From NCBI GenBank assembly GCA_031213475.1, contig JARUPZ010000013.1:10270794-10334793 (forward strand): a stretch of DNA of 64,000 nucleotides, given 5' to 3'. A model generated the notes under the pieces. It saw only the letters and a program-made list of their open reading frames with translations, had not been told where the DNA came from and did no database searches. Positions 2,105-63,396 of the stretch are shown here, in pieces. This stretch comes from Nereocystis luetkeana. Lineage: Eukaryota; Sar; Phaeophyceae; Laminariales; Laminariaceae. How positions within the stretch are numbered: the stretch's first letter is position 1; every line of letters begins with the position of its first letter. Made by a program: the position numbers and the translations under genes.

Positions 2105-3529
2105 GTGTGTGTGTGTGTGTGTTCTTCACATTAAACCGTTCTTTCTACCCGTCGACATCCAGCACAACCAGTGTCCGTGCCGATTCTTCCATCCTAGAAG
2201 AGATACAAGTTCTGTGGTCACAAAGCTACGCCACAGAGATACTACGTTGCCACGTGTGCAGTGTGAACTGCAGTGGGCAATGCAAAGCCATGTCATCATA
2301 CTAGATACGACAGGCACGACATACGCAATCTATGAAATAGTGAAACGAAAAGAAACAATCAAAGAGAAAACAAAAACAAGGTAGACAAGTCGAAAAAGAA
2401 GAAGAAGAAAAATGAAAGCAAAATCTAAGAGAAACAATCTGTCGTGCCCCCCCCCCCGCAGGCGAGGTGGCCTACACTTGAAAAAGAACGAGCTGGAAAA
2501 AAGAAGAAATAACAAAAAACACCACTGCTTGTGAACAGAGTAAGACAAAGACCCAAGGAGAAAGTAACAAGGAAAAATAACCAAGGGGAAATAACAGGCA
2601 GACCAAAGCCCAAAGCACCTTCTAGGTGGCGGCAGCAGCTTGTGGTACGAGTAGTATAGCCAGGTTCTCCCTGCTAATCCGCCTGGTACCTTGCTACCCA
2701 GACTGCCGTCTCCGCCCTGCGTTCGTCAACTATGCCCAGCCCCTTGGCGTCAGACAATACGAGCCGAGCAGAGCAGGTTCGTCTTCCAACCACGCCACAC
2801 GGCTCCTTGAGTACGGCTTATCAATCAGAAAAGGAAGAGGAAGAGAAGAAAATAATACCTGGTATGAAAATCACGGAGAGTCAGCGCAAGAAAGAAAAGG
2901 AAACAAAACTAAAAGAGAAGACAAGGGAAGACCACGTTCGAGCCAGCTGCACCAGTTGGTAGCACTAGTAGTATGTGGTCATATTCTACTTCCTAGTCGA
3001 CTTGGTGCCTTGCTACCCTGTCTGCCATCTCCTTCCTACTTTCGTCTACCGCCGTTTCCCTTCTACCCCTCCTGTTCCCCCCCCTCTCCGCATTCACTCG
3101 GTCGGGCTTTATGCCACTTCTCCTGTTGCCCCCTCCCCCCCCGTTCCTTTGGGCACCATCCACGGCGGATGCGCGGCGCTGTCTACTCATCTCAGCCTCA
3201 GCCTCGTGCCACCTCACCATGAACCATTCGGCTGCTTCAAGGATCCCCCGGTACCACTTCCCCACCTTTTTGGCTGCAGTGGACCACAACGCGGTCTCAA
3301 CTCCAAACACCAAGGGGGCAACTTCCGTTGACCCTTCGGTGGCTCGGAACTCCCTAAGGTCTTCGACTATGCATCTATGCCATGTAGCAACGTATAGTAT
3401 CTCTGTGGCGTAGCTTCGTGACCACAGAAGAACTTGTATCTATCTCTTCTGGGATTGAAGCATCGGCGCGGACACTGGTTGGAAATTGGTGCTGGATGTC
3501 GACGGGTAGAAAGAACGAACACACACACG
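2105..3529 (-). mobile_element. TIR DNA transposon, copy A
   Basis: Sequence 2118-2260 (GTTCTTCACATTAAACC, a GTCGACATCCAGCACAAC block, TCTGTGGTCACAAAGC) reappears inverted at 3374-3525, giving terminal inverted repeats of about 140 bp. The outer ends are GTGTGTG and CACACAC. The body matches copy B at 40347-41829 closely over its whole length. The minus strand has a reading frame (2993 to about 3400) shared with copy B. I see no DDE or other transposase motif, so the copy is probably non-autonomous or of an unrecognised family. A 7-bp insertion (TA-CCTGG-TA at 2856-2864) is absent from copy B. Confidence 0.75.
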
Positions 3530-3922
3530 ACGTGCTGCGTGGCTGCGTGCGATCAAAGATGCATACCTGGTATACCGTATGTTACGGGTGGATTTTGACC
3601 CCTGCTAGACTGCGCCACCCGAAAAAAAAACGGCGCTTCTCAACGGTCTCCTGCATATCTCTATACTAGCTGTATCTTCGCGTGCGAGAGAACGTTATTA
3701 TGCGCTCGTCACACACAACAAAAAAACGACCTAAAAAAGTACAGCCAAGCTATCGTATAATACCAGGTGCGTCACAGTCACAATCAATCCGTGTGTCTCT
3801 GGTGTGTGGCAGCGTGCGGTGCCTCTGTGTGTGTACCTGGTACATGTGTGTTGTGGTTGTTCTTGTACCTGGTACGTAATAATAATAGCAAGAAACAAAT
3901 ATAGTATCATCAATAATTATTC

Positions 3923-3953
<31 letters not shown>

Positions 3954-4829
3954 GTATAGTACACGGCGGCTATACTCACTACGTACGACATACATACGTC
4001 GCCAACATAGATAGCAGGTAGATAGATGCACGCCAAGCACAGGCACCTCTTTCTGAAGTCACACTTCTTCTGTGGATCGTCATCTCTCCTGGCACTCTTG
4101 CCTTCTCCACATCACAATTGGCGGCGTCGAAAGGATTACATCATCCAGGGTGGCCTGGAAGCCACACCAGCAGGAGCGCCACAGCGCCACAGCGGTCTCA
4201 CGGCGGGTTTCTCAGAGCTGGAAGGCGATTCGGCGATGGTCTCAGGTGATTGGGCCAAGTTGCCCCCCGCGCTAAAAGTTCATCACTCAGGGGGGGCTTG
4301 CGTGTTGTGCCGGAATTCACGGACCGAGCATTCCTCCACACGCATCGATCCGCCAATTATTTGACATCGTACGCGCGGCTGCAGCGGAGGTTGTATTATT
4401 GGTGTGGGCAATGAGGAGGGGGCCACTGGATACGTTGATGAGGAATACTGGTAGGATTTATGTGGGGAATGGAAATTGGAAACGGCTGGCAGAGAAGCGT
4501 ATGAGGAATACTACTGTAGTGCTGATTTACGGAAAGATATTCGGTGTGTGTTAGAATGGCATCTACGGAAGGCAAGCACAATAATAATAATAATAATACT
4601 GGGGGGGGGGGGGTATATATGTAGCGGTGGAATGGGGAGTGGGAAGTCGCTGGATATACTGTGGGGGTATAGTGGTGCAATGGGGATTGCGTTGTTTTCA
4701 GGGGGGGTGGGCGGGGCCTGTGCAGCGGCGCAATAGAGATTGCGCGGCTATAATCTACGTATGTTTCACGTTTCGCCCCGCCCTCACCCGCTCAGTACGA
4801 TATACTGCAGGTAAAACACCTTTTCACAC
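3530..4829. other. Intergenic, repeats only
   Basis: Contains TACCTGGTA words (3566, 3836, 3869), an AAT microsatellite at 3925-3955 and G-runs near 4600 and 4700. No coding region supported. Confidence 0.5.
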
Positions 4830-4938
4830 TATTACGGGGGGCCATAGTTAACAGGACCAAATATTGTTAGTAAAAATGGTTAAACATGTAGGTTTTTATG
4901 TATACCATAGGTCCTGTTAACTATGGTCCCCCGTAATA
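4830..4938. mobile_element. MITE-1, copy 1
   Basis: Palindromic element flanked by TA: TATTACGGGGGGCCATAG on the left and CTATGGTCCCCCGTAATA on the right, arms of about 35 bp. Between them lies the family core, CCAAATATTG...TTTTTATGTATACC. Length is about 105 bp. The TA flanks and terminal inversion fit a Tc1/mariner-type non-autonomous element (inference). This copy has no 7-bp insertion. Confidence 0.8.
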
Positions 4939-4989
4939 TTAATACGAGAGGACAAGAAGAAAAAAAACGTTCAAAAAAAGACAGAATAA

Positions 4990-8362: not shown

Positions 8363-8570
8363 GGTGACACGTTGTGTTTTTTTTACGTTTCTTGCATAGT
8401 GCCAAACTCTGGGGCTCCCTCGTTTCTCGTTTTGGGCAGGAGTGGATCATTTCTGTTTTTAATATGACTGCTTCTCAACTTGTAGCCCCCAGTTTGAGCT
8501 GTGTTTTACACGCCCAATTTCCTAATGCTGTTTCTTCTATTTGAGCATTTCTCTCTTAAAATAATACCAG
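8363..8570. repeat. Direct-repeat pair, first copy
   Basis: GCATAGTGCCAAACTCTGGG through CCCCCAGTTTGAGCTGTG and TTTGAGCATTTCTCT recurs with about 80 percent identity (by eye) at 9166-9345. The two copies are about 800 bp apart, with a SINE fragment between them. Not recognised as a known family. Confidence 0.6.
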
Positions 8571-8667
8571 GTACAGTACTAGGTACTTCTTGAATGCGGG
8601 CACCTACTACTTGCTGTATACTACCAGCTACGTGCTAATATTCTACTCTTGCTACTCGTGCTACTTT

Positions 8668-8832: not shown

Positions 8833-9165
8833 CTACTGCCTGGTACTATTATTCTGCGAATACTTCAACAGACTATATTACTATTCATACCTGGCAGACT
8901 GCTGTAACAAGTAAAGTGTACATATGATATTGGTAGTTAAATTACATCAACATAACAACCGTGTCAACCATCAACAGCAACTACAACATTGTTTTTGCGT
9001 TATTACAGCACACAACTGTACCGTGGTACCGCTCTTTAGGTAGCTGTACCAGGTACAGATATTATTTTGTTTATGCGTCCGTCTGTCATGCTCACTTTTT
9101 TATTCCTGGTAGGACTATTTTCGTGCGCTTTCCCCCAAGAGAGAGCAACAAAGCATATACCCTTC

Positions 9166-12689: not shown

Positions 12690-15600
12690 GAAAAAAGGTG
12701 TGCCCGGGTCTTTACAAATCAGGACCAGGTACGACGAGTATATACTATTAGTATGTGCCCTCGGTCGATCGCGTGGCTCGCGAGGTGTTTTCTTGTTTTT
12801 TTTTCGACTTGATTTTAGGCTGTGCCCGTTGTTGACTCAAAATGTACCGGACGTACACGTTTTTGTTGTTGACGTGGGGTACTATAAATAGTTTGTTTGC
12901 TGTTTGGCGCCGTGGAGTGTCTGTTCGTTTGTGTGCTCGGTATGTTGACTTTCTTTTGTTATCTTGTAGTGGGTGCGCTTGTGTTGTGTTGTACAGAACA
13001 GGCCCGCGAAAGAAAAAACAAAAACGAAGAACAACACAAGGCTCACTTTGTGGAGGAAGCTAAGAACATAGGGTTAAGAAATCGTGCTCAGCGGCGATCC
13101 GTGCACTGAACCTGCATAGTTGCCTGTGCTCAATGTTGTTTAAGCATGGTGGCACAATGGAGTTAAAATTCTTGCTCATACAATAATCAATCAACAGATG
13201 TTTCTTGTCGGCAGGCCCATACCGTATTGTGATAGTTTTGCTTTATTTTGCATGGGTTTGGGGCGGTTTCATTTACATACCCCTGTTATTCACTATTGTG
13301 GTTCGTGCGGGGATACTCTTCTGTGTTGTTCGTTCTCCTTTTTTAGTTGCCTTTTTGTGGATGTTTATTCTCGGTGTTTGCTTTCTGCTGACGGACTAGA
13401 TTTTGCCTAAATACCAATATATGACCGTCGCGGTTGTTCTTTCTGGCCAGCCAGGTGGGGGGGGTGGTACGATAGTGTGGCGTGATCCGGCATAAATAGT
13501 CGGGATATCAGTGAGTCCTGGTGTTGTGACGGCATAGCTGGGCTAATCCTTAGGCAAGGGAGTTGGTATACCCTAAAGTGTAGAGGGCTTGGTGTGAGAG
13601 TTGGTGTGACTATATGATACCAGGGTATGCATGGTAGTCGGTGTGAATGAGGGTGGAGCAATCGTTTCAACCGCAGCCCGAGATGTATCCCGTGTATACT
13701 TGGTTACTATATTGTTATTGCTTGAAATACGTCGGTGAGAGGGCAAGGTCGGCGCGTTTTTTTGCGCGGTGTGGCCCATCGTGTACTTTTGGTAAAATGA
13801 AATACCAGGCATGAGATAAAGCCCCCCTGCCTAGGATGATTAAAAATGACACAAAAGGTAAAAGAAAGGACTGCGTACTACGTATCAGACGCGGCCCGGC
13901 TGGGCCAGGCGTTCTTCCCGTAGAAACTTTCCTTGTGATTGGGTAATGTACGTAACACAGGGCGAACTTACCAATAGCAGCAGGTAGATGCAAAGCTGGA
14001 CACAAGTTCTCGGAATCATTTTATAAAATTACAACAAATCAATGTCATATCTTTGGGTTCGACCGATAAAGTGGTCGATGCTCAACTTTTCGCGAGCTGC
14101 GTGTGATTCATAAGGCGCGGTTTCGTCTTGAATGAATGTCATGACGTTCCACTAGGACTTCAGTTTATGGGAAGCGGCGAACAAGGTGCGAGTGACGGAC
14201 GCCCAGGAAAGTCTTTCATGATGTGAGGAGCGTTCCTTTCGTCACGATATGGATTTCAATGTGTATGTGTTTGGTGTCCAGGGGGAGCTTTTCTGGACGT
14301 GTACTGTAGTGTGGCCGGTTTCCCCTCCTCGGTCTTTTAGTCAGCGGAAAACTAATATCATGGCACGCTGACTTGTTCAGTCACAATGCTTGTCCCCAAG
14401 AGTTTATTTTTTTTTTAGTGTGGCGGCATCGACGACACAGACGTAGAAGATGTTATACCTGGTACACATTATGACAACAAGGGTAACTGAAAAAAACGAA
14501 AGGTGTATTGACATTTTGGTGTTGAAAAACTATGAATAACAACGTTGTAGACCTACCGCCTAGAGTATGGCGCGGCTGGCCTTCCTTCCGCCAACCAGCT
14601 GGGGGGGATGTTTTGAGGACGGTGTTCTACCGTTTCCGTGGATGAAGGCGGGGTTGGTTCCGGTTAGGGCGTGACAGACAGGGTAACGGGGGCAATGGCC
14701 CTCGGAACCGAGGCTTCCTGCGTATTCAAGCAAGTAAGCGCCCCCCCCTTGCAGCTATTATTACATTACTCAAAGAACTGGTACTATAGTGTCTGGCCAA
14801 TCGCGCTTGATAGCCTGAGCGGCTTAATATGATCTTCTCCGCGCGCCTTTCTTGACCACCGGGTGGTGCTCTGGTGCTCACTCATGGCGAGGTGGTTGCT
14901 ACATACCAGGCAAGTAAGTGTTCATGTAGTTGTGATAACATTAATGGTCACCTAGCTCATAATACAAATCTCCTATCACGTACCGGTATGAATGAATAAA
15001 GGTATAAACTGGGCTATGACGACGCCATCACATCAGAAGAAAACATCAAGCAGAGAAAAAATGGTGTGCTCACCAAAAACAGCCTCCTAGAGGGATGCTG
15101 GTGTACTCTGTAGCGCTAAGAGTAGGAGGATAATTCGAAGTAATAGCAAAGGTTCACGATCGCTTCGTCACACATTTGGTTTGCTCTCTAAAACCCCACG
15201 CCCGACCACTCGAGCGTGCCTCATACAATATGCAAACCCACTCAAACATCGGTTCTCTCACGAGAGGGGGGATCACTCCATCTTCTATGCGACTGCACGA
15301 GTGTTGGTAGCAGTTTAGCGCCGAAATCTCATCTGCTTCACGCCCTAGTCGACTGCAGGATGTCAGCTCGACATGCTTGATAGAGCTGCCTGGTCGCTAA
15401 CAATATACCTGGTAGGAGATATTCAACATCATCATCATCCTCATCAGCTCCCAACCGTGATGATCATCACGCACAGCCTCGACATAACCAGCTACAAAAC
15501 AGCCACAGCATGGTTTGCTTTGGCAATCACAGTAGGACCACCGGACCAACGGCTACGTTCGAGCCCCCTGGCTATATAGATTGGGCAAAGGTACGAATAC

Positions 15601-19800: not shown

Positions 19801-22800
19801 GGACAAAGGAATGCCCTACGTACGTAAACAATTTTGGACAAAACTATAAGATGGTATAATACACAATTGTCGAAACATCTACACACGTGGCATATACAAC
19901 TGTACACCGTAAATTTGCACATGTCTGTGGATAACGCTATACATCTATGTATACACTGGTGGACAAATATACATAGTTACACGTTTTTGTGGACAAATAT
20001 ACACGATGCCAGGTACAAATGAGTACACCTCCGGAGACAAATCTACAAATCTATGTTTATAGATATATGTGGACAAACTAGTTGTACATAATAACACACA
20101 ACTGTGGACAAATCTATTGATATACGCAGCATTTGTGGACACAGACCAACACGTTTGTGGACATTTGTCCGCCCACGGATGAAACTCTCACGTCTTTATG
20201 GATGCCCCGGTAGCAACAGATGGCCGTGAGCACGCCGAGGGCGATGATTGCGCTGACGGTCGCAATCATAGCAAAGCTACCCCCCGTGTAAAACGCCTTC
20301 GCTTTCCCTATGAACGACCCGGACGGAGCCGTTTCGACAAGGCCGCCCTGACACGTTACGCCAAGAGCGTCCGCCACACAGCACGGACAGTCGTTCCTGT
20401 TCCGACGTTTTCAGTGTTTGGGGAGAGAAACAGAAGGCCAGCAACAACGCGGATGAAGGGGGGAGGGGAGAGGGGGGAAGAGGGAGGGGGGAGGGGGACG
20501 ACGAGTCAACGGCTGGCTTGGCGGCGCGCCTAAGGCAAGAACGCAAAGAAGGGGGCGTTCCTATCGGTAGCAGCCAAGTCTTGGCTCTTTCATCCAAAAT
20601 GTTACCTACATGATGAATAGCGACGAGCAATGAAAATGCTGAAGCCATAGCGCGCTTTAACTGAAGACAAGTGCAGAGAGGGGGAGGCACGCGTGACCAC
20701 GGCTCAAACAGACAGCTACCGAGGGGGACAAGCTGGAAAAGTAAAAGTGATCCTTGAATAAATACTAGTGGTGTAAGCTATTGCTAGAAATTCGAGCAAG
20801 CAGGACATTTGTAACTGTCGTGACCTTGCGCGTGGGTTGGGGAGGGATACTTCGAACAAAAAAGTCACCAGTCCTGTTTTCGTCGTGGTTATCTACCGTT
20901 GTCTTTCGTCGGCGATCTCGAAAGGGGCAGCTGAAAGGTCCCCTAGGTTTTGGCGCCGTGGAAAGCAGAAACTAAAAAAAGTGCATCCGTTCGTGAAACA
21001 AAAGCACATGCACGCACGCACACATGCACATACCGCAGCCAGCCGCGCGCGCAAAACAAACCAAGGCTCACCAGTCCGGGTAACGAGCGTCGGGGAAGTC
21101 GGCCTGCCAGAACTCCCGATTCACGAAGCAGAGGCGGCACTCCGTCACCCCGCCTCCGCCGCACCCCGACACCCCGCCCCCCCCCTCCAAACACGCCTCG
21201 TCGTAGTACATCCCGACGCTGAGTCCGCTGAGCTCCACCACCCCTACATCTAAGCCTATGCATGGCGAATCATCTGGCAAGGAGCAATAGTCGTCTGAGC
21301 TGGTTTTCGAGTCTGTCGACGGTGGGCCGCTCGCAGCAGAGTCGTCGACAGATTTGCACGTCCCACCCCCCACCTATACCGGAAGAGCGGGAGAGGGGAC
21401 GGGGAGGGAGGGGTTGGGGGGGAAGAAGAGGAGGGGAGGTGAGGAGAGGGGTTAGGGGTGTAGTAGAGAAGGAGACGAAACATTAAACATCGTCTGGTGT
21501 TCATTCAACTGCCACCATATAGGGGGGCATGTCGCCCGCACCGTGTTTTCACGAACCAGCCACCAGACCCACAGGGTACTCACCACTCTGCCCAAATATG
21601 CAATACCCGACCACTATTCACATCAAACACCTAAATGCGAATATAGTAGCGGAAAGATCGGCATACTTTGGGACGGGCTGCCAAATACCAGCAGGATAGA
21701 GGGGCCGCTATCAGCCTCATATATGCAAGGATGAGGGCGGCATTTCACTGACGTGAGGGGAGACGCCTGCCGGAGCACAAAAAAAAAGGGAACAACATGG
21801 AAAGAAGCCAACTTGCCTCGAACTCCAGCGTTCCCCCCGACCCTCCCTGCACGCCGCAAACAGTCCACGACGCCTCCGAACTCCACGCCGAGTTAGCAGT
21901 GGATGTGAACGTGTAGTGGCCATCTTCAAGGCACAGGCTTTTCACCGCCGAGTAGTGGCCAGATGACAAGGACCCATCACCCACTGGAGAAGTTAGGTCC
22001 GATGCAGATAGGGCCTGCGTGATGCTCCAGGTGTCCACCCGCCCGGGAAGGGCTCCGGCCCAGCCATCGCCGTACTCGTCTTCCATGAGGACCTGTTTTT
22101 GTTTTGGGGGGGAGGGGGGGGGGGGGGTCGGCGTGGATATATCGTAATCATGATTTAAGTTTTACGGGGGGGGCGGGAGCGTTGGATTGGAACGTTGGGT
22201 TGGAGCGAGGTTGATGTGTCCATTGACTTTCAGGATTTATTCAGAACTCACAACAACTGAGGTGGCGTCACACGGGACAATTATTACGGGGACCATATTT
22301 TATAGGACTTATGGTATACATAAAAACCTATATATTTGACCATTTTTATTAACAATATTTGGTCCTACCTGGTATTAACTATGGCCCCCCGGAATAGGCT
22401 TACATCCATACTTGCTCTTTTTTGCGGTGGCGATGGCGTAAAAATTAGGCTTGCATCTACCTTGATATATTTAGCGCAGAGCTCCTCTCAAGACTTACCA
22501 CATAACTTACCGCAGGCGACAAACAGCAAAATCTAGCCAACTTATTACTGTAGTCAGCGACTTCTACCCATAACAACAGTCCAGCCAACTCACACAGCCT
22601 TCCAAAGGTTATCGCAGGCAACAAACCGCAACATCAACCAACTCACACAGTCCCACGAATTAAAACCACACGTGCCTGTTGATATTAAGATTCTACCACT
22701 GGCCATGTAAAACAACTCGTCAGCGACTTATAGTCATAGTCAGCCAACTTGCCGGTCGCCCCGGTGGGTCAAGTGGTTAACCTCGAATTCCACTTGCGTT

Positions 22801-25600: not shown

Positions 25601-26195
25601 AATAGTTACAGTAGTATTACAGATTACCGGTATGCCATCGACGCTCTACTATCCATCTGCTTGCACCACATCAGGGCAAAGGCCTGAAATAAAAATATGG
25701 TTTCCCTGCGCAGCGCATGACACGCCTCGCCGTCGCTGCTTTAGCTTCTCAGCGTTCACTCCCACTGTGGGCAAACGGCACCGGCATACATATCTTAGTG
25801 AACAGGGGGTAAATTTTCTCCGAGAGCCCCCCTGCGGTTGCGAAAGCAAAGGAGTGGTGTCGTGTGTCGTTCGACCAGCAGGGGGGCGGGTGTGCCTGCT
25901 TGTTTGTTGTCTCGAAGTCGTCTGAATGAGGCGAACACTCACTCGTCTCATACGGGTGCTATTAATATAAATAGTAAAAGTACCTACTGACATGATACTT
26001 ACCTGGTAAGATATACCTGCTAGATAGCGCCATACCTAAGTGTACATCATTAGTACCTAGTGTATGATACGCACCAGGTACCTGGTATGTAAGAGATACC
26101 TGGCAAGGCGACTGACTCGTCGTACCCATCTTGAATAGACTACCAGGTAGGTACGAGTAGTTGTGCCGATGCGCCACGCTACTTACAGCTGGTCT

Positions 26196-26291: not shown

Positions 26292-26437
26292 TTATTACGG
26301 GGGGCCATACCTCGTACCCTGGTAGGTAATAGGACCAAATATTGTTATCAATACCTGGTAGTAGAAAAGGTTAAATATATACCTGGTAGGTCTTTTATGT
26401 ATACCACAGGTCCTATTAACTATGGTTCCCCGTAATA
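26292..26437. mobile_element. MITE-1, copy 4 with several micro-insertions
   Basis: The longest copy. Extra blocks relative to the family consensus include CCTCGTACCCTGGTA in the left arm, ACCTGGTAGT near the centre, and CCTGGTA before the GGTCTTTTATG stretch. The last is a clean 7-bp insertion. A divergent MITE-2 copy lies immediately upstream. Confidence 0.75.
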
Positions 26438-28735: not shown

Positions 28736-28965
28736 ATTAAAACATCATGTTCTCAAGTAAGTAAGTGTCTTACTTGTATTATATATACCAGGTATGATTC
28801 TGAATGACTCGAAAATGAAGTACATTAACTCCTTCAGACGTCTCTTTAAAAAGAGTATCTACTGAGATATATTTCGGGCTCCAATCAACTTTAATCGTAC
28901 TGCTGTGCATTGATTACTGATTTACTTGGCTTCTTGGGCCCCTTCTTGTTGTGTGTGCGTTCTTC

Positions 28966-29371: not shown

Positions 29372-29965
29372 TAAGGTTTTTGTTCTCACCAACAATAATA
29401 GCAGCAACAGCAACACGTACGCAACACGGAGTAAGAACAGAAAAAAAAACACAAACAAAAAAACAAGTCCGTGGGTGGCCATACGTCACAACAAAAGCTC
29501 AAGCACCAAGCAACAGGCAAGACGACTATTAATACTGCTATTAATACTACTCTGCACTACTACTGCTGCTGTGGTAACAACTACACCACAAGCAAGCGAG
29601 CTGACACACACCCTGCATCAAGTATCATGTACTCAAATATATAAACGCCTCGAAATCGAGCCATAAAGTAATACTTCTCATGCTCAGGAGAGGGAGAGTG
29701 ATCGACCTTAATAATACGTCTTATTGTTCTTGTTCTTGGTACGTATGTGCCTGTCTTCTTGCTCTGAGATTGCCTGGCGTCGGTTTCCACACAGTTTCTT
29801 GCTTGCTGTGCGCTGCTGTGGCCTTTTTTCACTACATATATTAACATAGTGTTGTATATGCGATATCTCGACCTCCTCTGTATGTAGGCGCTGCGTATGA
29901 TGCGAACCATTTTTTGTTTGTTTGTTTATGGTCTCACAGCCTACCTGGTATACAATATTATTATC

Positions 29966-33180: not shown

Positions 33181-33222
33181 GTCCAATACGATGTACCAGG
33201 TACGAGGTATCCCACGAGACTA

Positions 33223-40346: not shown

Positions 40347-41829
40347 GGTGTGTGTGTGTTCTTCACATTAAACCGTTCTTTCTACCCGTCGACATCCAGC
40401 ACAACCAGTGTCGGTGCCGATTCTTCAATCCTAGAAGAGATACAAGTTCTGTGGTCACAAAGCTACGCCACAGAGATACTGCGTTGCCACGTGTGCAGTG
40501 TGCACTGCAGTGGGCAATGCAAAGCCATGTCATCATACTAGATACGACAGGCACGACATACGCGATCTATGAAATAGTGAAACGAACAGAAACAATCAAA
40601 GAGAAAACAAAAACAAGGTAGACAAATCGAAATAAAAAAATAAAAAAATGAAAGCAAAATCTAAGAGAAACAATCTGTCGTGCCCCCCCCCCCGCAGGCG
40701 AGGTGGCCAACACTTGAAAAAGAACGAGCTGGAGAAACGAAAGAAAAAAAATAAAAATAAGAAAAAACACCACTGCTTTTAAACAGAGTAAGACAAAGAA
40801 CCAAGGAAAAAAGTAACAATGAAAAATAACAAAGGGGAAATAACAGGCAGACCAAAGCCCAAAGCACCTTCCAGGTGGCGGCAGCAGCTTGTGGTACGAG
40901 TAGTATAGCCAGGTTCTCCCTGCTAATCCGCCTGGTACCTTGCTACCCGGACTGCCGTCTCCGCCCTGCGTTCGTCAAATATGCCCAGCCCCTTGGCGTC
41001 AGACAATACGAAACGAGCAGAGCAGGTTCGTCTTCCAACCACGCCACACGGCTCCTTCAGTACGGCTTATCAATCAGAAAAGGAAGAGGAAGAGAAGAAA
41101 ATAATATGAAAATCACGGAGAGTCAGCGCAAGAAAGAAAGAAAAAAAAAAAACAAGAAGAGAAGACAAGGGAAGACCACGTTCGAACCAGCTGCACCAGT
41201 TGGTAGCACTAGTAGTATGGTCATGTTCTACTTCCTAGTCGACTTGGTGCCTTGCTACCCTGTCTGCCATCTCCTTCCTACTTTCGTCTATCGCCGTTTC
41301 CCTTCTACCCCTCCTGTTCCCCCCCATCTCCGCATTCCCTTGGTCGGGCTTTCTGCCACTTCTCCTGTTGCCCCCTCCCCCCCCGTTCCCTCGGGCACCA
41401 TCCACGGCGGATGCGCGGCGCTGCCTACTCATCTCAGCCTCAGCCTCGTGCCACCTCATCATGAACCGTTCGGCTGCTTCAAGAATCCCCCCGTACCACT
41501 TCCCCGCCTTTTTGGCTGCAGTGGACCACAACGCGGTCTCAACTCCAAACACCAAGGGGGCAACTTCCGTTGACCCTTCGGTGGCTCGGAACTCCCTAAG
41601 GTCTTCGACAATGCATCTATGCCAAGTCTTACACTGTCCGCCTGGTACGAGTATCTCAATCAATAATAGAAGGCGGGTAGTTTTTCTCGTGCCTGTTTAG
41701 GTGTTCTATCTCACTATTCATTATTAGTACTTGTAATAGGATTGAAGAATCGGGACGGACACTGGTTGTGCTGGACTTCGACCGGGTAGTACTGAGTAGA
41801 ACGGTTTAATGTGAAGAACAGACACACTA
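40347..41829 (-). mobile_element. TIR DNA transposon, copy B
   Basis: The left end (GTTCTTCACATTAAACCG at about 40359) is mirrored at the right end (CGGTTTAATGTGAAGAAC at about 41802-41820). The body parallels copy A, including the C-run at about 40683-40693. Copy B keeps a fuller right end than copy A. It is the empty-site reference for the 7-bp insertion in copy A: AATAATATGAAAATC around 41101. Confidence 0.75.
41235..41663 (-). CDS. Hypothetical protein in the TIR transposon
   Basis: This 142-codon frame is open in copy B. Its homologous frame in copy A (2993-3313 and upstream) is open too, with few replacements. The central part reads like a compact domain: E-T-A-L-W-S, then K-W-Y-G-G-I-L-E-A-A and F-M-M-R-W-H, followed by an Arg/Gly-rich segment. 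The K-W-Y-x-G and V/M-R-W-H spacing recalls Tudor- or chromo-like DNA-associated domains, but the match is too weak to assign. No catalytic motif is visible. The opposite strand is also open in places, so this call rests on conservation between the two copies. Confidence 0.35.
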   Translation of the reverse strand: MIEILVPGGQCKTWHRCIVEDLREFRATEGSTEVAPLVFGVETALWSTAAKKAGKWYGGILEAAERFMMRWHEAEAEMSRQRRASAVDGARGNGGGGGNRRSGRKPDQGNAEMGGNRRGRRETAIDESRKEMADRVARHQVD

Positions 41830-42119: not shown

Positions 42120-42200
42120 GCTACCTGGTACCTGGTTATATACCAGGTACCCCTGGTACCTGGTTATGTACCAGGTACGAGTTACCAGGTACCTGGTATC
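42120..42200. repeat. Cluster of TACCWGGTA words
   Basis: Within 80 bp there are at least five TACCWGGTA words plus partial ones. They include CCTGG-TTATATA-CCAGG and CCTGG-TTATGTA-CCAGG inverted pairs bounded by TA. It is the densest occurrence in the window. Confidence 0.8.
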
Positions 42201-43096
42201 ATTTACCATGATTAGCATTGCTTCATAAAGGACCCCCGTTCTTTTCTGGAAACAAATGAATCCTTCTTTCATCCCTCAAACTAAGCCGTAAACAAAGTAA
42301 TTACAGTACCCCTCTTTCGTTACCGAAGTGTTTTTTCGGGTGCGTCGCCGTCGTCTCGCTCGACATCGCGCAAAAATCGAAGTATGTACTATAAATAGAG
42401 GGTTACGCTATGCCAGCCAGTATTAATATCCACGTACAACAAAAATAACGCTGTTTTCTTGGGCGATTTAATACCTGGTACTGCCGTGGTACAAAAAGCA
42501 GTAGTATTGATATTCATAGTAATATTGTAGTGTTAGTATTAATGTATTAATAGTAACCAGGATTGGTAAGTGTCTTTGTTTTTATTGCGGGTGATCCGGA
42601 AATGAACCCTCACTTAGTTGACTTCTTCGACGGCTGTTGTTGTGCTCTTTCCATGGAATAATAGTAGGGCTGTCATGGTGTCATGGTCGTGTGACTCGGT
42701 GTTGCGTAAACATGCTAAACTATTCTTCACAGCACCAGCAGCAGCAGCAGCAGCAACTCTTCCACAAGCGGGCCCGTCTATTTATTACCATGGTACTGAT
42801 TGTAGATTTTGTAGGTGGCCAACCTTGGAACCCCGTTGCATGGAGTTATTAGCTTATTGACTACTGACACCGCGACATGTGGTGAATCATTTACTAGAGG
42901 AAAAAATAAAGTCAGGCTGGGATGTTTGTTTTTATTTTATACCTGCCGTTTACAACTAATAATAAGCATATGCTGAGCGAGGAGGGCAACTTGACTTGAC
43001 TGCTGTCGCGTACTGCTGTATTGCTAATATTACTATTAATAGTCTACTTGCCGAAAGTTACATCGTAGGATATACCAGGTGATATTATATCCTCGC

Positions 43097-43136: not shown

Positions 43137-43583
43137 CTATTAAATACCAGTATTCTCCACATTTCCACCAATTGGAGGATTCTGCTGGGTGTACGAGTAG
43201 TTTCTGTACAAACCTGTACCAGGTATTGACAGTTGAGGTCGGATGACTTGATGAGTTGAGACGACGAGATGTTTTGCCGTGTAGAATGCGAATATACTCG
43301 GGCCCGCAGAGATAGCCGTCATCGATGGCCGCCGTCGCAACCGAACACCGAACCGACAATGCTAGTTCTTCGCTTTTGGAATATCGAAAATTCGAACGTA
43401 CGGCTCAAACCCACGCCCCCCCCCCCCTCGCCCCATCGTCCTCGTCCTCCTCCCCCTCCTCCTCCCGGTAAAATAGCAGATACTCTCCTCAACAGGGTTT
43501 CTAGATCTTGCTGAGGCGTTGCACCGGTACTTGACGGCGGCCCTGGTCGAAAAGAACACCTGCCGCCCAAAAACAACAGCAGC

Positions 43584-46500: not shown

Positions 46501-49500
46501 CGACCAGACTGCAGGGGTGGGTGGATGAGACTTAAATTCGTGGAGGCCTGGGATAATTTATTTTTTCATTTATTTATTTGTCGGGGATGTGGTGTGTTGA
46601 TGTATTCATAGTAGAGCAGGGTCGTAGGTAGACGAGACATGCGGAGTTCGTGGGAGGCTTGTGGTGTGGCATGTTGGTATTCACGGTGGTGGCTAGACGA
46701 GACGTGCGGAGTTCGTAAGGGCATTGGATTTTGCTTTTCTTCAGGGCTTCGATGGGTTGGTATTGTATTCTGTATTCTTAACCACCTCTCACTGTCTGTT
46801 TTTTTTCTCCCTGCGCTTTTCGAGCATACTGCTCCGCGTTTTTCTGCTCAACGTCTCGCTCTTCCGTGTTTTGGTCGCTGAGTGGGTTGCTTGCTCGGGT
46901 GTTTTGCTTGCTCCGCGTTTTTGCTGTTCCGCGTTTTGGGCTCTCGCAATTTTGGTTAAATCTTGCCCGCGGTTTTTCCTTTCTTCCCTGCCTCGCACCT
47001 CTCTTTACCAGGCAGTGCAGCCAGAAGAGAAGGCGAGGGCAAAGGACCGGCGCAGCGCCAAGACTGGTGTCCGTGCGGGCGGGCGGGCTCCGAGCAACAC
47101 GGTACAGGGGGATGCCGATGTCAGCGCGGACCCGATGACGTACGCGTTGCAGCAGGTGGGTGACGAATATGATCAGATGAGGTGCTGCGGTCCTGCTAGA
47201 GCTAGACGGAGGAAGGGGGTGTTTTGGGGGGAAAGGGGTAGTTTGGGGGATGCCGATATCAGCGTAGACCCGATGACGTACGCGTTGCAGCAGGTGGGTG
47301 ACGAAGAAGATTATATGTTGTGGTTGTGCTAGAGGGAGGAAGGGATGCTGCGGAAAGGGAGGGGGAGGGGCACTCATATCATGCATGACCGCAGTCATAT
47401 GTATGACCATAGACCCTCGCATCCCTACAATGCGGGGACGGAGCGGGGGGGGGGGGGTTGTTTGGCGGATACCCGATGCGAGCAGGGACGCAATTACGTA
47501 CGCTTTGCACCCGGTGGGTTAGTGCTGCTGTGGTTCGCCCAGAGGGAGGGAGGGAGGGAGAGAGGAATGTTTGTGTTTTTTTGGGGGGGGGGGCGGGGCG
47601 GGTGGTGACGGTTATTCCCGCTTTGCATGCAGCAAGTGACGATGAGATGCTGCTACTGTGGTTCTGCTATAGAGAGTGGTTCTGGTATAAGGAGACTACT
47701 TTTTTTTTTAGGAGAGGGGTTGTCGGACTGTCATATACCGCCCCATGCAGCACGTGGCGATGAGATGTGGCTGCTTTGGTTCGTTCTGCCTGAGGGAAGG
47801 TTGTTTTCTGGGACGGGGAGGGGGAGGGGAGGTGTTTGATGGCGTGGGGTGTTTTTTAAGTACTTTAGCCGGTGACGAATGAGATGCTGCTGCTATGGCT
47901 TCTGGCAGAGGGAGGGAGGGGTAGTTGATGGCGGGGGTTTGTGACTGTGGCGTACGAGGTACGCTTTACAGCAGGTGATATTTGGGATGAGGTGGGGTGG
48001 TTTTGCTAGGACAAGGGAGGGATGTTTGGGGGGGTGGGGGTTCCTTGATGGTGACGTACGCTATGCAGCAGGGGAGCGATGAGATAGTGCTGATTTTGCG
48101 GTTCAGCTGGAGGAAGTGAGGGGGAGAACCTTTTTTATGGTTGCCCCTGACCATGTTCCACCAAACCCCACTGCTACTGTTCGTCTGTGTGTTGCTTGCT
48201 GCTAGGGCGGAGAAGAAGAATTGGGTTCTCAGGATGACGAGGATGAGGTGGTGTACCAGAACCACCAGGTGCACCACAATGTGATCAACCACAGCAATTC
48301 AAACCGGCAGACGGCGGAAGAACCAGTAGGGAGGTGAGGAGACAGGTCTCGATCTACTTACTATCAATATTAATAGATCTCATGTATTTGTATATCCCAT
48401 GTTTTCGGAGACAGAACGAAAATTTGTTTGCTCGCGCTTTTTTTTTATCTTCCTAGGGCTCCATCCAGCACCTTTGTTTGGTCGCAGACCCCTTGATGTG
48501 AGAGTTGAAGGTGAGAAGGCCAACAGTAGATAATTAACCCGTGTTATTACGGGGGACCATATTAAATAGGACCTACGGTACACACAAACAAACACCTATA
48601 TATTTCGCTATTTTTACCAACAATATCTGGTCCTATTTACTATGGTCCCCCGTAGCAGTGGTGCAGTCCCGATTTTGGGACGAACCACGGTAATTCCAAG
48701 TGGTTTGTCCCCCCAAAACTGATCTAAAGAGACTGCAGTGCTCAAAGGGTTAGTTAGTTAATTAACCCTGTAACCCGAAATAAACCCTTGGATGTCGACC
48801 AAAAGAACGATGCTTGTGGTGGTATCAACGGCCTATGTAACAGCGCCGTGGGCGTCAAGCTTGTATTGATTGTCCCAGAATGACGCAGTGGCATTTGCTG
48901 CCATCGTCAATTTTTTATGGTCCCTTTTCGCCCTCCGAAGCCACCAACAGGAGCTGTAGATACGGCTGGGCTCTGCCTGGCTCACACAGTGGTGGCGACG
49001 ATACTGCCGTCGTCAAAATCAATCAGTAGAGACTGGATTGCAGCGGTGTACAGTCTCTCCTCTGTAGTCTCTTCTCCCACAACGTATCAAGTGGATTCCC
49101 TGTAATATGGCGTGTTTCTTGGGCGTAGAAATATACTGGCCACGTCAATCAGTAGATTACTACTGGCAGTAGATTACTATCGCCAGTGCATACTGTGCCA
49201 GCGCCCAGCCGTACTACTTCCTGTATTATATCCTAGGCGGGGCGACAGAACGAGCGGACTCAGTCCTGACAGTTGCAGACATGGGGACGTATCACGATGT
49301 ACATCGTCGAGAACGTTCATGTGTTGGAGGAGGCTGAACGAGCTAACGCTGCGAGTGCTGAAAGGCAGTGCTGATATATATATTACGGGGGACCATAGTT
49401 AGTAGACCAAATACAGTGAGTAAAAATTGTTACATATACCAGGTATAGGTTTTTATGTATACCACAGGTCCTGTTAACTATGGTCCCCCGTAATAGTAGT

Positions 49501-57035: not shown

Positions 57036-57121
57036 CGTGTATTCATGTTGTCGTAGCAAGATGGAGAAATATTCTGCTGTGCAAGCTAAAGTTGCTACTT
57101 TAATAATACCAGGTACCTGGT

Positions 57122-57223
57122 ATATGATAATAATAGAAGGCTGCGAAGCCTTTTGGCGGAGAACCGTGTACCAGGGATATGATAATAATAGAAGGCTGCG
57201 AAGCCTTTTGGCGGAGAACCGTG
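57122..57223. repeat. 56-bp tandem duplication
   Basis: GATAATAATAGAAGGCTGCG through GGCGGAGAACCGTG occurs at 57125-57167 and 57181-57223. The first copy is preceded by the perfect palindrome TACCAGGTACCTGGTA. The second copy begins after GTACCAGGGATAT. Confidence 0.75.
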
Positions 57224-57239
57224 CATAAAAAAAAGTATC

Positions 57240-59659
57240 AAACCTTTCTCCATACACTACTGTGGTTGACAGGGGGCATCGCCTCTGCGCCATAGCTAGC
57301 TATAATACGATTTAAAGTGTGTGCTTCCCGAAAGAAAAAATCGTGAGGCGAGCGTGGTCATCCACACGCTAGACTATAATATCCACCATCACCGCTCGTC
57401 GCCACTGCCTTAAGTTTTTAACTTGGTCACATATTGCACAATCTCTTAATCGGGTGACACCAACTGAGTGCTTGCTTCCTTTGCAGACTGTCTGGACCGA
57501 ATTACCACATGTTCATCTCCGGGTTAGGGCCAGCATCGCTGAAGCACCTGACTGAGTGGGATGATCACTCTCCCAGACACGAAATAATGATAGACGCTGA
57601 CCAGTTTTAGTAGATACCGACCAAAGCAGAGAAGAGACGTCAGGGTGAGTGCTGTGCCCGATGTTCCCAACAGCAAACATCAGTATCCTAAACAGCCGCC
57701 TTAAGATCCATATATGTATAGGAAACCCGGGGATGTACCCCGGATGCCCCCTGACTATCACAAGTCGTACATGCCACAACCCGCAATAGGTTATGAGCCT
57801 CGATTCGTGTGGCAAGCGCTGCAGAGCTGCGGGCCACGAGGTACGTCGAGCGAATACTACGCCTGACGCCCGAGCCGCTGCTTCCACCGCGATCTTCACG
57901 ACGGAGCTGCCAGGGCTATCATGAGCTGGAGCAGTTGATGCTTGTTGCGAACAACATCAGCAACAACAACGACTACGACGCTCTACAGAGCTACCACGAT
58001 CGCCAATCTAGAAGTGCTGCTCCGGGCTTCAACTACTTATTTTTTCTACAGAGACCTGCCGCCGTGTAGAAACTTAAGAACTAGAACATGAGTTTTTCTC
58101 GAAACGTAGCTTTCGAGTACGTACCATGGCAATGCGACGGTCTGGTTGGGCTACTTTCTTTCGAAAACCTGACGTCAGGCACTCGATGGTCTGGTTCAAT
58201 TAATTCCTACTTCCAGATACATTTCGGTCCAGCTCCACTGCTACGAGTACGTCAGGGTCTGGTTCGATTCTGTGACGGTCTGCCTCGACACTACAGTACA
58301 CCTCTTTGCTCTACTGCTGCCGCTGTTGCGCTGGAGAAAGAACGGCTGTGTATCAAAGCCACTGGGGATCCTTCGAATCGTTGGCGGATACACTGGAGTG
58401 ATGATGCTGCAGGTACGAGAGGAACTACTACTACTACTTTTTACTATACTACTACTGCTGCTACTGCTGTATTTTGGGAGAGTTCGACGAGAACAACACC
58501 CTGACCGAGGTCATGGGGGTGTCAAATGACACCAAGCTTTTCCAAACTGCTCGTTGATATGCTGCTTTTCGGGGGGGGGTTCTGTTTTTGAGGATCAGCC
58601 AGACGTAGTTGCTCGTCGTTGGTACTACGAGCACGAGTTTCCATTTACTACGCATCTGATTACATCATTTCAGAACCAATGGCACCGAGTGATACCGCAC
58701 GCATGCCTGTCTGGTAAATGTATAGTGAAACCTGCGCGGGTCCAAGGTCCACATGTATCTGGTTGGACTTTGTCGAAACGCCAAACCTGCCACGGCAGCA
58801 GTACCTGGTATAGGTATCTACGTTGCCAAGTTGTTGCGTTATAGCTGTAGAAGGGTTGACCACCTGTTGAAACCGAAGCAGGAACGGTTGGTGTTGTTTT
58901 CGACGCCGCAAAGGAGCAAAGGAAATTTGCTGCGGCGAAACAATGGACTCCACTTCGTATGCAGACAAGTACATACTATGAAATAAGTAGTGCAGACATC
59001 AAGTAAACTCCCGACTAGCGACAGAATCATAACTCCCTGGAAGACCAAATCGTGTAGGTTCACGAAACTAGCAGTATTATAGATATGATCAGCAAGCACG
59101 AAGAGGACGTGTTGTAGAACCAAGGTATTGGGCAACGAAATTTGAAAGTTGAACGGCGCAACTTGACTATACGACCCGTCCATCGCGGGGTCGTATTGAG
59201 GATGGCTACTTTGCTACCTGGTACACAATAGTAGTCAGTAGCCCATTGATTCGCTGTAGGTGACATAACTATATAGTATGCTATAGTTCGTAGAGCACAG
59301 CAGGCAGTGTAATGAGCTGTTGATTTTTAATAGCAATGTGTTCAAAATGTGGGATCGGTCATTACGGTTGTATGCGGTGGAACCGCACAAACCCGTTCGC
59401 ATTACCGATATCGATCATGAAGTAGTGTTAACATCAAGCACCCACTTGCTTTCGGTGTGAATAGAAACCCAGGGTATGCAGCGCACTCTTCCGCACACTA
59501 TTTTTCCATCATGTTCATCACATAATGTGGTCACGAAATGACATGCACATATCATACGCCGCTTACAAAAATCCACACGATACTACCCGTGCGTACATAT
59601 ATATTGGCAAATCATGTACCAGTCCAATACGCAACACCTGATACGTACAGAACACAGAG
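57240..59659. other. Intergenic, ambiguous open stretches
   Basis: 57500-58550 is open for 80-140 codons in several frames of both strands (e.g. Y-H-E-L-E-Q-L-M-L-V-A-N-N at about 57920). No domain, splice chain or conserved copy supports a gene. TACCTGGTA words occur at 58802 and 59215. Confidence 0.4.
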
Positions 59660-59858: not shown

Positions 59859-61194
59859 TTGTCTGTGCAGACGAGCTCCCCCTTTCCAAAAATACGTCGG
59901 ATAACTGCCTGCAGTGGTATAACACATTGTGTGGGTTGTATACACCCCCGTTCCCCTGCTCGCTGCCTCGGCCAGGCATGCTGCTAGGTATGCCCTATCA
60001 GGCTTATAGCGAGTGGGGTAGGTATTTCTAACGAGGGTAGGGCCGGACTCGCCCTCAAGGGGTGATACCTTCTCGCTGCTGCGTGTGGCCGCGAAGCTAT
60101 GTCGTGGCAGTAGAGTTGGGTCGTACGTGGTGCCTCAGGCACGGACACCTACGATTCGCGTGTCTTCTTCAGGCAGCAGCGGCAGAGCAACAATGATGTC
60201 CGAGCGCGGAGGCAGGCGCCACAGCACAGGCCAAACTACGGTACAGTCTAATTGCGCCGGCTGGAGGCTGGATTCGACGACAAAAGAGGAGGGAGACAGA
60301 GCGTCGATGGGCGAGGAAGATACGGATTGAACTCACCCTGTGCGCGAGATTTTTTTTCAGATCAGACCCGCAAGTGCGAGGAGTAATTTGTTTTGGGACG
60401 GGGGAGAAGGGGAACCGACTGGAAGGGAGTGGCAACGGGAGCACAGGCGGAGGCGGAGGAGCGGGCCGGTTGGGCTAAGGCAGTGAGTGAAGTGGCCATG
60501 GAGAACGGCAGCGGGATGGCACACAAAGACCCACGACCGGCGCGCACGCCATCACGAGACCAGCAGCCATCGTTTTTTTTTCTGGTTTTACACTCCAGGC
60601 AGTAGAGTATGAGCGTACCTGGTACCTGTTATTCGTGTCACAGCTCTGAGACTTTGCAATGTTGGCGAGTTGTATACCCTTCATGAGGAATGACCCCCGC
60701 AATTATCAGGGAGGGACGTGGTACCATAGGTGTGCTGCGCCTTTTGTCATACAGTGCGGGAAGACATGACGATCATTGATATTTGTATGGTGGTTTTGGG
60801 TTCGATCGTTTTTTTTCACTACACATTCGCGAGTCGTCACTCTGATAACACCCCAGACAGCAGGCGTGTTCCATTCAGTGTCCACGAGTCCCGTGCGTTT
60901 CGTACGATGCAGGCAGCACTCCGGACAGCTACCGCTGTAGTCAGTAGCTACGAGTTGGTTTAATAATTATTGGGAACGAGGGGAACTCTATGCTCTAGTT
61001 GATGAGTGGATACCCGCGGCCACGTTAGTTCAGTTTGCATGTTGAATTCGTTTCTCATGTTATGTGTGCGCCTTCTTTGTCTCGTGTGTGTTTTAGGTGA
61101 GAAGCGTCGTGCTTCCCAGCCGAACTTTGTTTTTCATTGTTTCTTTTTATTTTCCTAGGGCCCCAGCACCCTTGGGTGACCGCGGACTTCTTGA

Positions 61195-61320: not shown

Positions 61321-61735
61321 ACACTATCATATCGGATGTGCATGTACTGTGTATGTATAACCTGTCTTGGGTATTGAGAGTGCCGTGTGTCAGCACACCC
61401 GTAGCCTAATGCGAGCTACTGTTATTATGAGGATACACTACTTGGGCTGAAAAATCCTCATATAATCCCATTGTTCTAGTAATGAGGGTTTTGAAGTCGA
61501 GGAAGCGACGTGACCGAGGCGTTTTGGGTAGAGGTGTCGATTTCTCACCACTAGACGTTGATGGCAACTATTAATATGAATAGCAAGTAAGTGCATCTAC
61601 ACTCGTTGACCTCGAAAGATCTTCATCGGTCGCCGTTTGAGTGTGATGCATTGCCACATTTCTAACATCAGAGGGCTTGAAGGCCCCGAATCGCATTCAG
61701 CGCTACATGCGCCGTGCATCTTACAGCAGTACTAC

Positions 61736-61846
61736 TATTACGGGGGACCATAGTAAATAGGACCTACGGTACACACAAAAAAAACTCTATATTTCCCTAT
61801 ATTTACTAGCAATATTTGGTCCTATTTACTAAAGTCTCCCGCAACA
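61736..61846. mobile_element. MITE-1, copy 9
   Basis: Ends are TATTACGGGGGACCATAG and a degraded CTAAAGTCTCCCGCAACA. A repeat-R5 fragment follows at 61866. Confidence 0.75.
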
Positions 61847-61971
61847 GCACTGCTATATTGGGTGTTCTGGACAATGTGCAGCATCGACTTCAACGTCGAT
61901 CACCCAAAAATATTACACATCCCCAGAACAGAGAAGAAAATCAACGGAAACGTTACTAACATAACCCTAAG

Positions 61972-62300
61972 CCGGTGTCCCCGGTGGCTTGGTAGGTGGT
62001 CCGCGTGCTTGCTACGATCATTTTCGTGGCTTCGAGCCTCACCGAGTGCGTAAGAATAAGGGCCTTTCCTTGCATAAAAAATGATTGACGGAAAGCGCGC
62101 GAGCGTGAGCTAGCAGCATTCGACGCAAATCGACTGCAGTGGGAATGCTGAACCCTTGCGCGATAAATACGAAGACACGCACCCGGGGGGGGGGAAATAA
62201 GGGACGACACCTGTGACCACGGCTTGTCCAGAAGATGGTTGAGGGTAAACACCTGCGGCGAGTGTAGCTGGAAAGTAAAAGTGATTGTAAGAAAAAAAAA
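61972..62300 (+). mobile_element. Second SINE family with tRNA-like head
   Basis: The head GTGTCCCCGGTGGCTTGGTA has an A-box-like region, and GTGGCTTCGAGCCTCACCG a B-box. The body shares only landmarks with the main family (ATTCGACGCAAATCGACTG, TTGCGCGATAAATACGAAG, GGGACGACACCTGTGACCAC). It ends near a short A-run at about 62291. Confidence 0.6.
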
Positions 62301-63300
62301 TGGTATCTGCGTAAATCACTCGATTTCTGCGTCCATGCCATCGTGGCCCTGTTCCCTGAACTACATGCAGCGTTGCAGCAGCAACATGTAACACATATCA
62401 TGAGTCTGGTTCTTATATCTCGATCTCTCTCGGCTTTGGCATCCTCGTGTGTCGCATCGTTGTCCCTCCCTCGGTAGGCTTGAAGGGCCCCCTCCCTCCG
62501 TACGGCTTCGGTATCCCAAGCTCGTCCGGGATGTAGGCGTTGGGCCGAGGCTCCGCCGTTGTTCGAATCTGACAATCGTCGACAATTGTGCGTTCAAGGG
62601 TAGAGGATGAAAGAGGAGGTAATTTTCAATAGCAGATCGCCCCATCAGAAACGGTTAATTGTGATTCGCTAGCGGCCTACTTTCGCCTGCGTCCCGCTGT
62701 TTGCTGTACGTCGTGATTGCTTCGCTTGTTTCGCAGGGATGATATATAGTAGCACTGCCAAGATGATCCAACTGAGAGTCCAAGCCCGTCCGGGATTTCA
62801 AGCATTAGGCCGAGGCTTCGTCATCATACGAAACTGTTTAGTCGCGGGGGGTGGGGAGTACTCTTGCCATGCGCGGTCATAGTCGTACGACCGTAGACCC
62901 TAGCATCGCCACAATGCCGGGACAAAGTACGTCGGGTGTTTACCGACTAGAAAGAACACACTTGCACCAGGCGCGGAGCGCGTGAGGTTTTTGGCGAGTC
63001 GCATAAAGGGTGAGCTGCATCCTATCAATACTAAAAACCGCTTGTTAGGCATAATAGACTTTCTTGCTTATGGGTGACAGCGTTGAGTTCACTGGTGTGT
63101 TTCCTGGTGGATATAATAATAGTGGTGGATGGTCCCACTATTAATAGACATAGTCGGTTCATTCTGGCTCGCGAGCGGCTGGTGTTATGTCGCGGCATAA
63201 TACTCGAGAGCGGTCCAGCTCGAAACACGTCCGCTTGTGCACCCCGCTGTCACTGCATACTACGGTTTCTTCGTGTTTGCAAGTAATATGATGCTGCAGG

Positions 63301-63396
63301 TATTACGGGGGGCCATAGTTAACAGGACCAAATATTGTTAGTAAAGATGGTTAAACGTATACCTGGTAGGTTTTTATGTATACCATAGGTCCTGTT
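63301..63396. mobile_element. MITE-1, copy 10, right end truncated
   Basis: Closest to copy 1 but stops at GGTCCTGTT without the right terminus. Contains CCTGGTA between GTATA and GGTTTTTATG, where copy 1 has none. Confidence 0.75.

Follow-up and report, generated by a model that had tools for sequence, protein, structure and literature searches.

The genome of the brown alga Nereocystis luetkeana is densely populated by the word TACCWGGTA, in which CCAGG or CCTGG stands between two TA dinucleotides. Here we describe this word in a stretch of 64,000 nucleotides (assembly GCA_031213475.1, contig JARUPZ010000013.1, positions 10,270,794 to 10,334,793 of the forward strand; hereafter the window), in samples of the same genome and in the assembly as a whole. 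TACCWGGTA is probably a footprint left on excision by a cut-and-paste transposon that targets TA, duplicates the TA, has ends reading 5'-CCAGGG and is cut with a stagger of 5 nucleotides (nt). The words are in large excess, were gained with a duplicated TA at sites that other repeat copies carry empty, and share a symmetric target signature with shorter and longer minor forms that favour one polarity. They are referred to below as scars.

Abundance of TACCWGGTA

The window contains 43 exact copies, where 100 dinucleotide shuffles give 0.48 on average and never more than 2. An earlier sequence-only reading of the window had estimated about 45 copies against 0.5 expected. The centre base on the plus strand is T at 27 of the 43 sites and A at 16. 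That reading had also proposed that TA-N-TA words be counted against a control. Among the TA-N5-TA words of the window, CCWGG (43) is followed by GTAAA (8) and GGACC (6). In the whole assembly (465,085,209 bp in 1,987 contigs) there are 182,395 TACCWGGTA words and 1,744 of the reversed pattern used as a control, which is not near expectation. The density is about one per 2.5 kb, and the added sequence amounts to about 1.3 Mb. The observation of abundance is confirmed.

Two samples were used for closer analysis. The 264-kb sample consists of the window and 20 pieces of 10 kb taken at round-number positions; the 314-kb sample adds five further pieces, for 26 in total. The smaller sample holds 110 sites against 2.5 expected from a third-order Markov model, and the larger holds 126. 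The spread is uneven, with none in three of the 26 pieces and 11 in one 10-kb piece. Among 9-mers other than microsatellites of period 1 to 3, TACCWGGTA is the most frequent of those listed and ranks third in the ratio of observed to expected. The flanks differ at all 126 sites, which therefore represent separate events. Five nested double scars and no triples are present in the 264-kb sample.

The word was gained, not lost

The clearest filled and empty sites lie in a repeat at 2111-3275 of the window. A first look gave 2,281 candidate copies in the genome; 40 of them were scored, and the query shares 98-99% identity with the long matches listed. At 2856 copy A reads AATA-CCTGG-TATGAAAATC, and copy B, at 41105, reads AATATGAAAATC, the filled and empty pair noticed from the sequence alone. 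All 20 further copies fetched from the genome are empty as well. Eighteen of these are identical there, reading AAATGAAATGAAAATC; the copy L045 is empty with one additional TGAAA, and L044 reads AATAATATGAAAATC, as does copy B. In a longer reading L044 and copy B have AATAATATG and copy A has AATAATACCTGGTATG. The TA was therefore present first, and CCTGG plus a TA was added later in a young repeat. Because this scar sits in a repeat with such similar copies, scar formation appears to have continued into recent times.

A scan of the repeats of the 264-kb sample for insertions and deletions was blind to the motif; alignments below 65% identity were excluded, as were insertions whose flanks were poor. 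It found 46 distinct sites of 7-bp insertion. The insertion duplicates a TA at 17 of these, and 12 of the 17 have a CCWGG core. CCWGG ranks first among 7-bp insertions (12 of 51, or 12 of 46 under different filters).

Further evidence comes from a miniature inverted-repeat transposable element (MITE), MITE-1, of 109 bp including both flanking TAs, whose ends read TTACGGGGG. The 314-kb sample yielded 41 copies when only matches of 80-200 bp were retained. Their majority consensus lacks a CCWGG insert, and eight of the 41 copies carry an intact TACCWGGTA (nine words). Filled sites in the window are at 22366, 26352, 26380, 33113, 49437 and 63360, with a TCAGG variant at 33087. The claims that CCWGG is a gain, and that MITE-1 copies had acquired it with a TA and once in a TCAGG form, are thus borne out, the first by the sister copies at 2856 and by the consensus, the second by the consensus. 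Seven copies have a CCWGG at one central TA run, in registers that differ slightly, and in one of the seven the right TA has decayed. This run is a hotspot that has received several independent insertions.

Many scars appear to have decayed since. The excess of singly mutated forms is about 90, compared with 123 intact words in excess; the raw sum of 99.8 counts one class (CCCGG / CCGGG) twice. As a rough estimate, this corresponds to a mean change of about 8% per site over nine positions if decay is neutral and the mixture of ages is ignored.

Target-site signature

The flanks were read outward on both sides of the 126 sites, giving 252 flanks. The profile is symmetric. It favours a pyrimidine at +1 (79%) and a purine at +2 (66%), then T at both +3 (42%) and +6 (56%), and A at +7 (50%); past +8 there is little signal. 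A TA at +6/+7, 7 bp away, is found in 81 of the 252 flanks (40 right and 41 left) against 7.4% after any TA, and on both sides of 16 of the 126 sites. The odds ratio is 5.9 in a rough test that counts both flanks of each site. When flanks resembling a nested CCWGG are removed, the TA persists in 53 of 207 flanks against 6.4%, so decayed nested scars do not explain it.

Among cores with a TA-N5-TA on both sides, CCWGG leads with 16, followed by GGACC (7; apparently a MITE-1 word), A (7), C (6) and CCGG (4). Rarer cores in the same test include CCAG with 3, level with three other entries, and CCAGGG with 2. With double-sided TAs at spacers of 3, 4 and 6, CCWGG counts are 2, 3 and 3, and at a spacer of 7 it is absent among the 22 cores printed. 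A symmetric preference of this length would be expected from a dimeric transposase and would be hard to obtain by slippage or selection.

Minor cores and polarity

Several other cores also have the +6 TA: CCGG in 13 of 40 flanks, CCAG/CTGG in 13 of 52, CCG/CGG in 30 of 146 and CCAGGG in 7 of 18. The commonest other TA-core-TA words (CGAG/CTCG, CAG/CTG, TTAA and TCAA/TTGA) have it in only 6-8%. Microsatellites confound the count of the core CCA/TGG (89).

The minor cores also favour one polarity. In the 314-kb sample CCAGGG/CCCTGG occurs nine times and CCTGGG/CCCAGG once; at 4 nt there are 26 CCAG/CTGG (+6 TA in 6 of 26) and 13 CCTG/CAGG (1 of 13). A genome-wide pattern made of the MITE-1 hotspot word, the half-scar and a non-T base matched 114 places, compared with 6 for the control. 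Among the 100 listed, the sequence is CCAGGG in 72 and CCTGGG in 3, and the next base is A or C in the other 25. From these, 58 of the 72, two of the three and none of the 25 were fetched; the ratio of 72 to 3 among the matches listed is the fair figure for polarity, since fetching favoured CCAGGG. At the 58 CCAGGG places a TA follows directly in 47, CCAGGGG and then TA is found in 4, CCAGGGCA and then TA in 1, and other sequence in 6. Neither of the two fetched CCTGGG places is directly followed by TA. Some of the 60 fetched places seem to lie outside MITE-1 (for example L073, L094, L099 and L109). One-base slippage of CCWGG is disfavoured because it should give both polarities.

A proposed model of excision and repair

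The data show that the word is in excess and was gained with a duplicated TA, that its target signature recurs at the minor cores, and that these cores favour one polarity; from this we infer a donor element, its ends, its overhang and its repair. The inverted ends of the donor would read 5'-CCAGGG, with one more G possible. The element would favour targets with a purine-TA-pyrimidine centre and a further TA 7 bp off on each side. One strand would be cut at the TA junction and the other 5 nt inside the element, so that each flank would keep its TA and a single-stranded CCAGG tail, either 3' or 5', between which the sequence cannot discriminate. The two tails could pair everywhere but at the middle position (C-G, C-G, A·A, G-C, G-C), with four of five bases matched. 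After their ligation, the A·A mismatch could be repaired in either direction, which would give CCAGG or CCTGG. The dominance of 5 nt and the A/T centre would be due to this pairing with a single mismatch. Cuts shifted by 1-2 nt, to 6 or 7 nt, would give CCAGGG, CCAGGGG or their complements, and end trimming would give CCGG, CCAG and CCG.

The sequence-only reading, which is supported in part, had left the choice between excision scars and a self-standing micro-insertion, and had supposed a CCAGG or CCTGG overhang. The CCAGG tail is retained in the present model and narrowed to ends of CCAGGG. Scars are favoured by the gain, the symmetric signature and the one-polarity minor cores. A full element or a transposase, which a scar would imply, was not found in the searches described below.

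Searches for the donor and its transposase

The sequence-only reading had suggested looking for full elements with CCAGG or CCTGG inverted ends next to TA, and none was found in 264 kb. The best of 861 pairs of TACCWGG half-sites at most 9 kb apart matches at 10 of 14 bases, and among the best 25 of the 861 are nested scars and a 26-bp hairpin. The sequence behind the half-sites is shared within at least four small groups; those inspected also have the same upstream flank, as expected of copies of repeats. A general search for inverted repeats flanked by TA returned 466 hits, and none of the 80 listed has CCWGG ends. Larger TA-flanked insertions in repeats made up 14 rows, resembling joins of adjacent MITE-1 copies. 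The 6-nt CCAGGG places were considered as a donor and rejected, as a TA comes right after the sixth base in most of them, making them scars. Ten open reading frames of the window matched no Pfam family at E 0.01, and Rfam gave nothing above gathering scores. The donor may be low in copy number, long, divergent or extinct.

Several results weigh against an excision footprint. No convincing inverted-end donor is present among the 861 half-site pairs, no widely shared sequence lies downstream of 116 half-sites, and no donor was found at the 60 fetched hotspot-word places. The transposase profile PF13358 gave 30 candidates, none at E 0.001, with introns ignored and a control that was positive in 3 of 14 genomes. 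PF01359 gave three weak matches below the cut-off (best E 0.456), again with introns ignored and with a control positive in 0 of 14. Both negatives are weak because introns were ignored and because of that PF01359 control. The core of 5 nt exceeds the 2-4 bp of Tc1/mariner footprints (PMC7913693). The words GGACC, CGGGGGACCA, GGACCAAA and CCGTAGGTCC have the highest +6 TA of all and are outside the model; they appear to be MITE-1 words and were set aside. TACCA, GTAA, ATATA, CAC and GTTAA have a +6 TA in 20-33% and are unexplained by the model. The seventh base G of the predicted end is only suggested, as it lacks support outside the pattern-selected places (2 CCAGGGG against 3 CCTGGGG in 314 kb). 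At the hotspot (consensus columns 57-60), the 5-nt scars in MITE orientation are six CCTGG (one decayed) and one CCAGG, a skew that the simple model does not predict. If the skew is real, mismatch repair or the choice of overhang would depend on orientation. The 6-nt scars after the hotspot word read CCAGGG, whereas the 5-nt scars there are mostly CCTGG.

Alternative explanations

An integrase or repair enzyme might add a ready-made CCWGG and TA, with no larger element ever present. The uniformity of the insert and the failure to find a donor are what such a micro-insertion would produce, and yet we consider it unlikely. The insert varies from 3 to 7 nt, which fits a trimmed or shifted transposon end, the minor cores of 3, 4 and 6 nt carry the same target signature, and those of 4 and 6 nt have the polarity of ends derived from one longer sequence. 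We know of no mechanism for it. Slightly less likely still is a pool of several unrelated TA-inserting families with common CCAGG ends. CACTA elements have a common terminal motif, and no single downstream sequence dominates the 116 half-sites; the one target signature and the one sixth base (G), however, suggest a single donor lineage.

It is highly improbable that CCWGG is ancestral and was lost, or is kept as a functional binding or methylation site. It is palindromic and abundant, as such a motif could be, but it is absent from all 20 sister copies and the MITE-1 consensus, its mutated forms are as frequent as under neutral decay, and its flanks all differ at the 126 sites sampled. Equally improbable are tandem amplification of a TACCWGG unit and an artefact of assembly or adapters. 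Nested doubles do exist, but the majority of the 110 copies stand alone, are dispersed and differ in their flanks, many mutated forms occur, and in one case the scar is in a young repeat whose sister copies are empty.

Comparison with known systems

The Tc1-type footprint, as left by Sleeping Beauty and Tc1, is CAG/CTG between two TAs. The scar described here resembles it in the duplicated TA, in a core that would consist of the terminal bases of the element and in an A/T centre that would come from mismatch repair. As in Tc1/mariner elements, insertion is at TA with TA duplication, and the preference around the TA is palindromic and AT-rich (symmetric to about +8). The main core of 5 nt is longer than a terminal-base footprint of 2-4 bp, and the cores of 3-4 nt that share the signature are rarer. 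The scar would work like a Tc1/mariner footprint; it is not counted as one, since its length is different and the searches showed no transposase. It also differs from piggyBac, which targets TTAA and excises seamlessly, in having a TA target and leaving a scar, and from PIF/Harbinger, with its 3-bp TNA duplication, in duplicating the 2-bp TA, next to which the base is mostly C or T and not fixed.

Among the open-licence papers listed in literature searches, no description of a 5-bp TA footprint or of a genome-wide scar was found; literature matches to TACCTGGTA appear from their titles to be primers. Tc1/mariner footprints are 2-4 bp and those of ZB itself 0-3 bp (PMC7913693). The ends of the Mos1 mariner begin CCAGGTG (5') and TCAGGTG (3') (PMC3419177), and its strands are cut 3 bp apart (PMC5481204). 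The putative donor is like Mos1 in its TA target and an end starting CCAGG, and unlike it in a predicted stagger of 5 nt. A Mos1-type end is disfavoured because the scars predict G at position six, where Mos1 has T. Stowaway/Osmar elements of grasses (wheat relatives) leave varied TA-flanked fragments of inverted ends, 1-4 bp long, at single loci in non-coding DNA (PMC1925063). TA-flanked end fragments are common to both, but here one stereotyped core is found at 182,395 places. A comparison of two rice species identified 94 putative excisions of DNA transposons, eight of which left exactly two copies of the target site (PMC4423477). As in rice, repair would leave small changes that accumulate; unlike rice, one scar dominates here, in searches that are blind to ragged outcomes. 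In the brown alga Ectocarpus 17 Mariner-Tc1 families with almost 12,000 copies are reported, in a main text that does not use the words footprint or excision (PMC12477816).

Features of the window

Scars are exact TACCWGGTA matches unless stated. The strand is given as "." for all features except the MITE-1 copy at 4830..4938.

1281..1289, TACCTGGTA scar
2856..2864, TACCTGGTA scar, filled, repeat copy A; empty in copy B and 20 of 20 sisters
3564..3572, TACCTGGTA scar
3834..3842, TACCTGGTA scar
3866..3874, TACCTGGTA scar
4830..4938, strand +, MITE-1 copy without scar, 109 bp, TA-TTACGGGGG..CCCCGTAA-TA; empty-site reference
8565..8573, TACCAGGTA scar
9047..9055, TACCAGGTA scar
13618..13627, TA-CCAGGG-TA, 6-nt variant scar
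14456..14464, TACCTGGTA scar
15406..15414, TACCTGGTA scar
22366..22374, TACCTGGTA scar in MITE-1 copy 22282-22396
26000..26008, TACCTGGTA scar
26079..26087, TACCTGGTA scar
26141..26149, TACCAGGTA scar
26315..26324, TA-CCCTGG-TA, 6-nt variant scar (reverse complement of CCAGGG)
26352..26360, TACCTGGTA scar in MITE-1 copy 26323-26437
26380..26388, TACCTGGTA scar, central MITE-1 hotspot
28786..28794, TACCAGGTA scar
29942..29950, TACCTGGTA scar
30937..30952, two nested scars, TACCTGGTACCTGGTA
32449..32457, TACCAGGTA scar
32566..32574, TACCTGGTA scar
33087..33095, TATCAGGTA variant scar (TCAGG) in MITE-1 copy 33058-33180, from the indel scan and MITE-1 consensus
33113..33121, TACCAGGTA scar, central MITE-1 hotspot
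33194..33202, TACCAGGTA scar
35147..35155, TACCAGGTA scar
35538..35546, TACCAGGTA scar
35758..35766, TACCTGGTA scar
35872..35880, TACCAGGTA scar
36007..36015, TACCTGGTA scar
36411..36419, TACCTGGTA scar
41105..41106, TA of the empty site, repeat copy B
42122..42198, five-scar cluster (42122, 42141, 42169, 42183, 42190; last two nested)
42472..42480, TACCTGGTA scar
42786..42795, TA-CCATGG-TA, possible fully kept variant
43217..43225, TACCAGGTA scar
49437..49445, TACCAGGTA scar, central MITE-1 hotspot
57107..57122, two nested scars, TACCAGGTACCTGGTA
58802..58810, TACCTGGTA scar
59215..59223, TACCTGGTA scar
60616..60624, TACCTGGTA scar
63360..63368, TACCTGGTA scar, central MITE-1 hotspot

Other words between TAs

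TA-CGAG-TA and its complement TA-CTCG-TA occur 17 times in the window (1384, 1577, 2646, 12318, 16272, 25343, 26152, 31413, 35643, 37349, 40895, 41646, 41873, 41979, 43192, 55030 and 58242) and 57 times in 314 kb, without the +6 TA signature. Two are insertions at TA between repeat copies. Minos-type footprints are 4 nt long and CGAG/CTCG resembles them; it may have been left by a second element.

The palindrome TATTAATA occurs 79 times in 314 kb (for example L012:3767-3810). This word and TATCAATA/TATTGATA favour a flanking GTA or KTA, yielding TACTATTAATAGTA. Insertions at TA of this kind were TTAA (4) and TCAA (2); words of the TATTAATA type are possibly a third scar or a palindromic repeat. 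The 26-bp hairpin between TAs met among the half-site pairs, TACCTGGCAGGCG..CGCCTGCCTGGTA at L022:9715-9744, may be a very small element or a longer product of repair. A long inverted repeat at L012:3474-5162 has several nested arms, with ends like GCTGYCTACAGACAG, and adjoins AGCTAGC-type words that are overrepresented in the sample. An open frame on the minus strand at L028:8713-9144 encodes FNIP-like repeats, and one relative has PF05725.

Implications

Studies of excision footprints have usually dealt with small numbers of them, and the footprints are often ragged, whereas here a single stereotyped scar fills a genome. We lean slightly towards attributing it to an undescribed TA-targeting lineage, with a 5-nt stagger and ends self-complementary but for one base, whose excisions commonly heal to the same scar and whose scars far outnumber surviving elements. 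One assembly would then hold a countable record of about 180,000 jumps, and more with decayed scars, including where they occurred and their relative ages. If excision is confirmed as the source, short insertions flanked by TA ought not to be taken for ordinary indels in genomes of this kind. The scars would then provide a natural counter of transposition that is independent of surviving elements and has a readable target preference, and a case in which the sequence of the ends and the stagger seem adjusted to give tidy repair.

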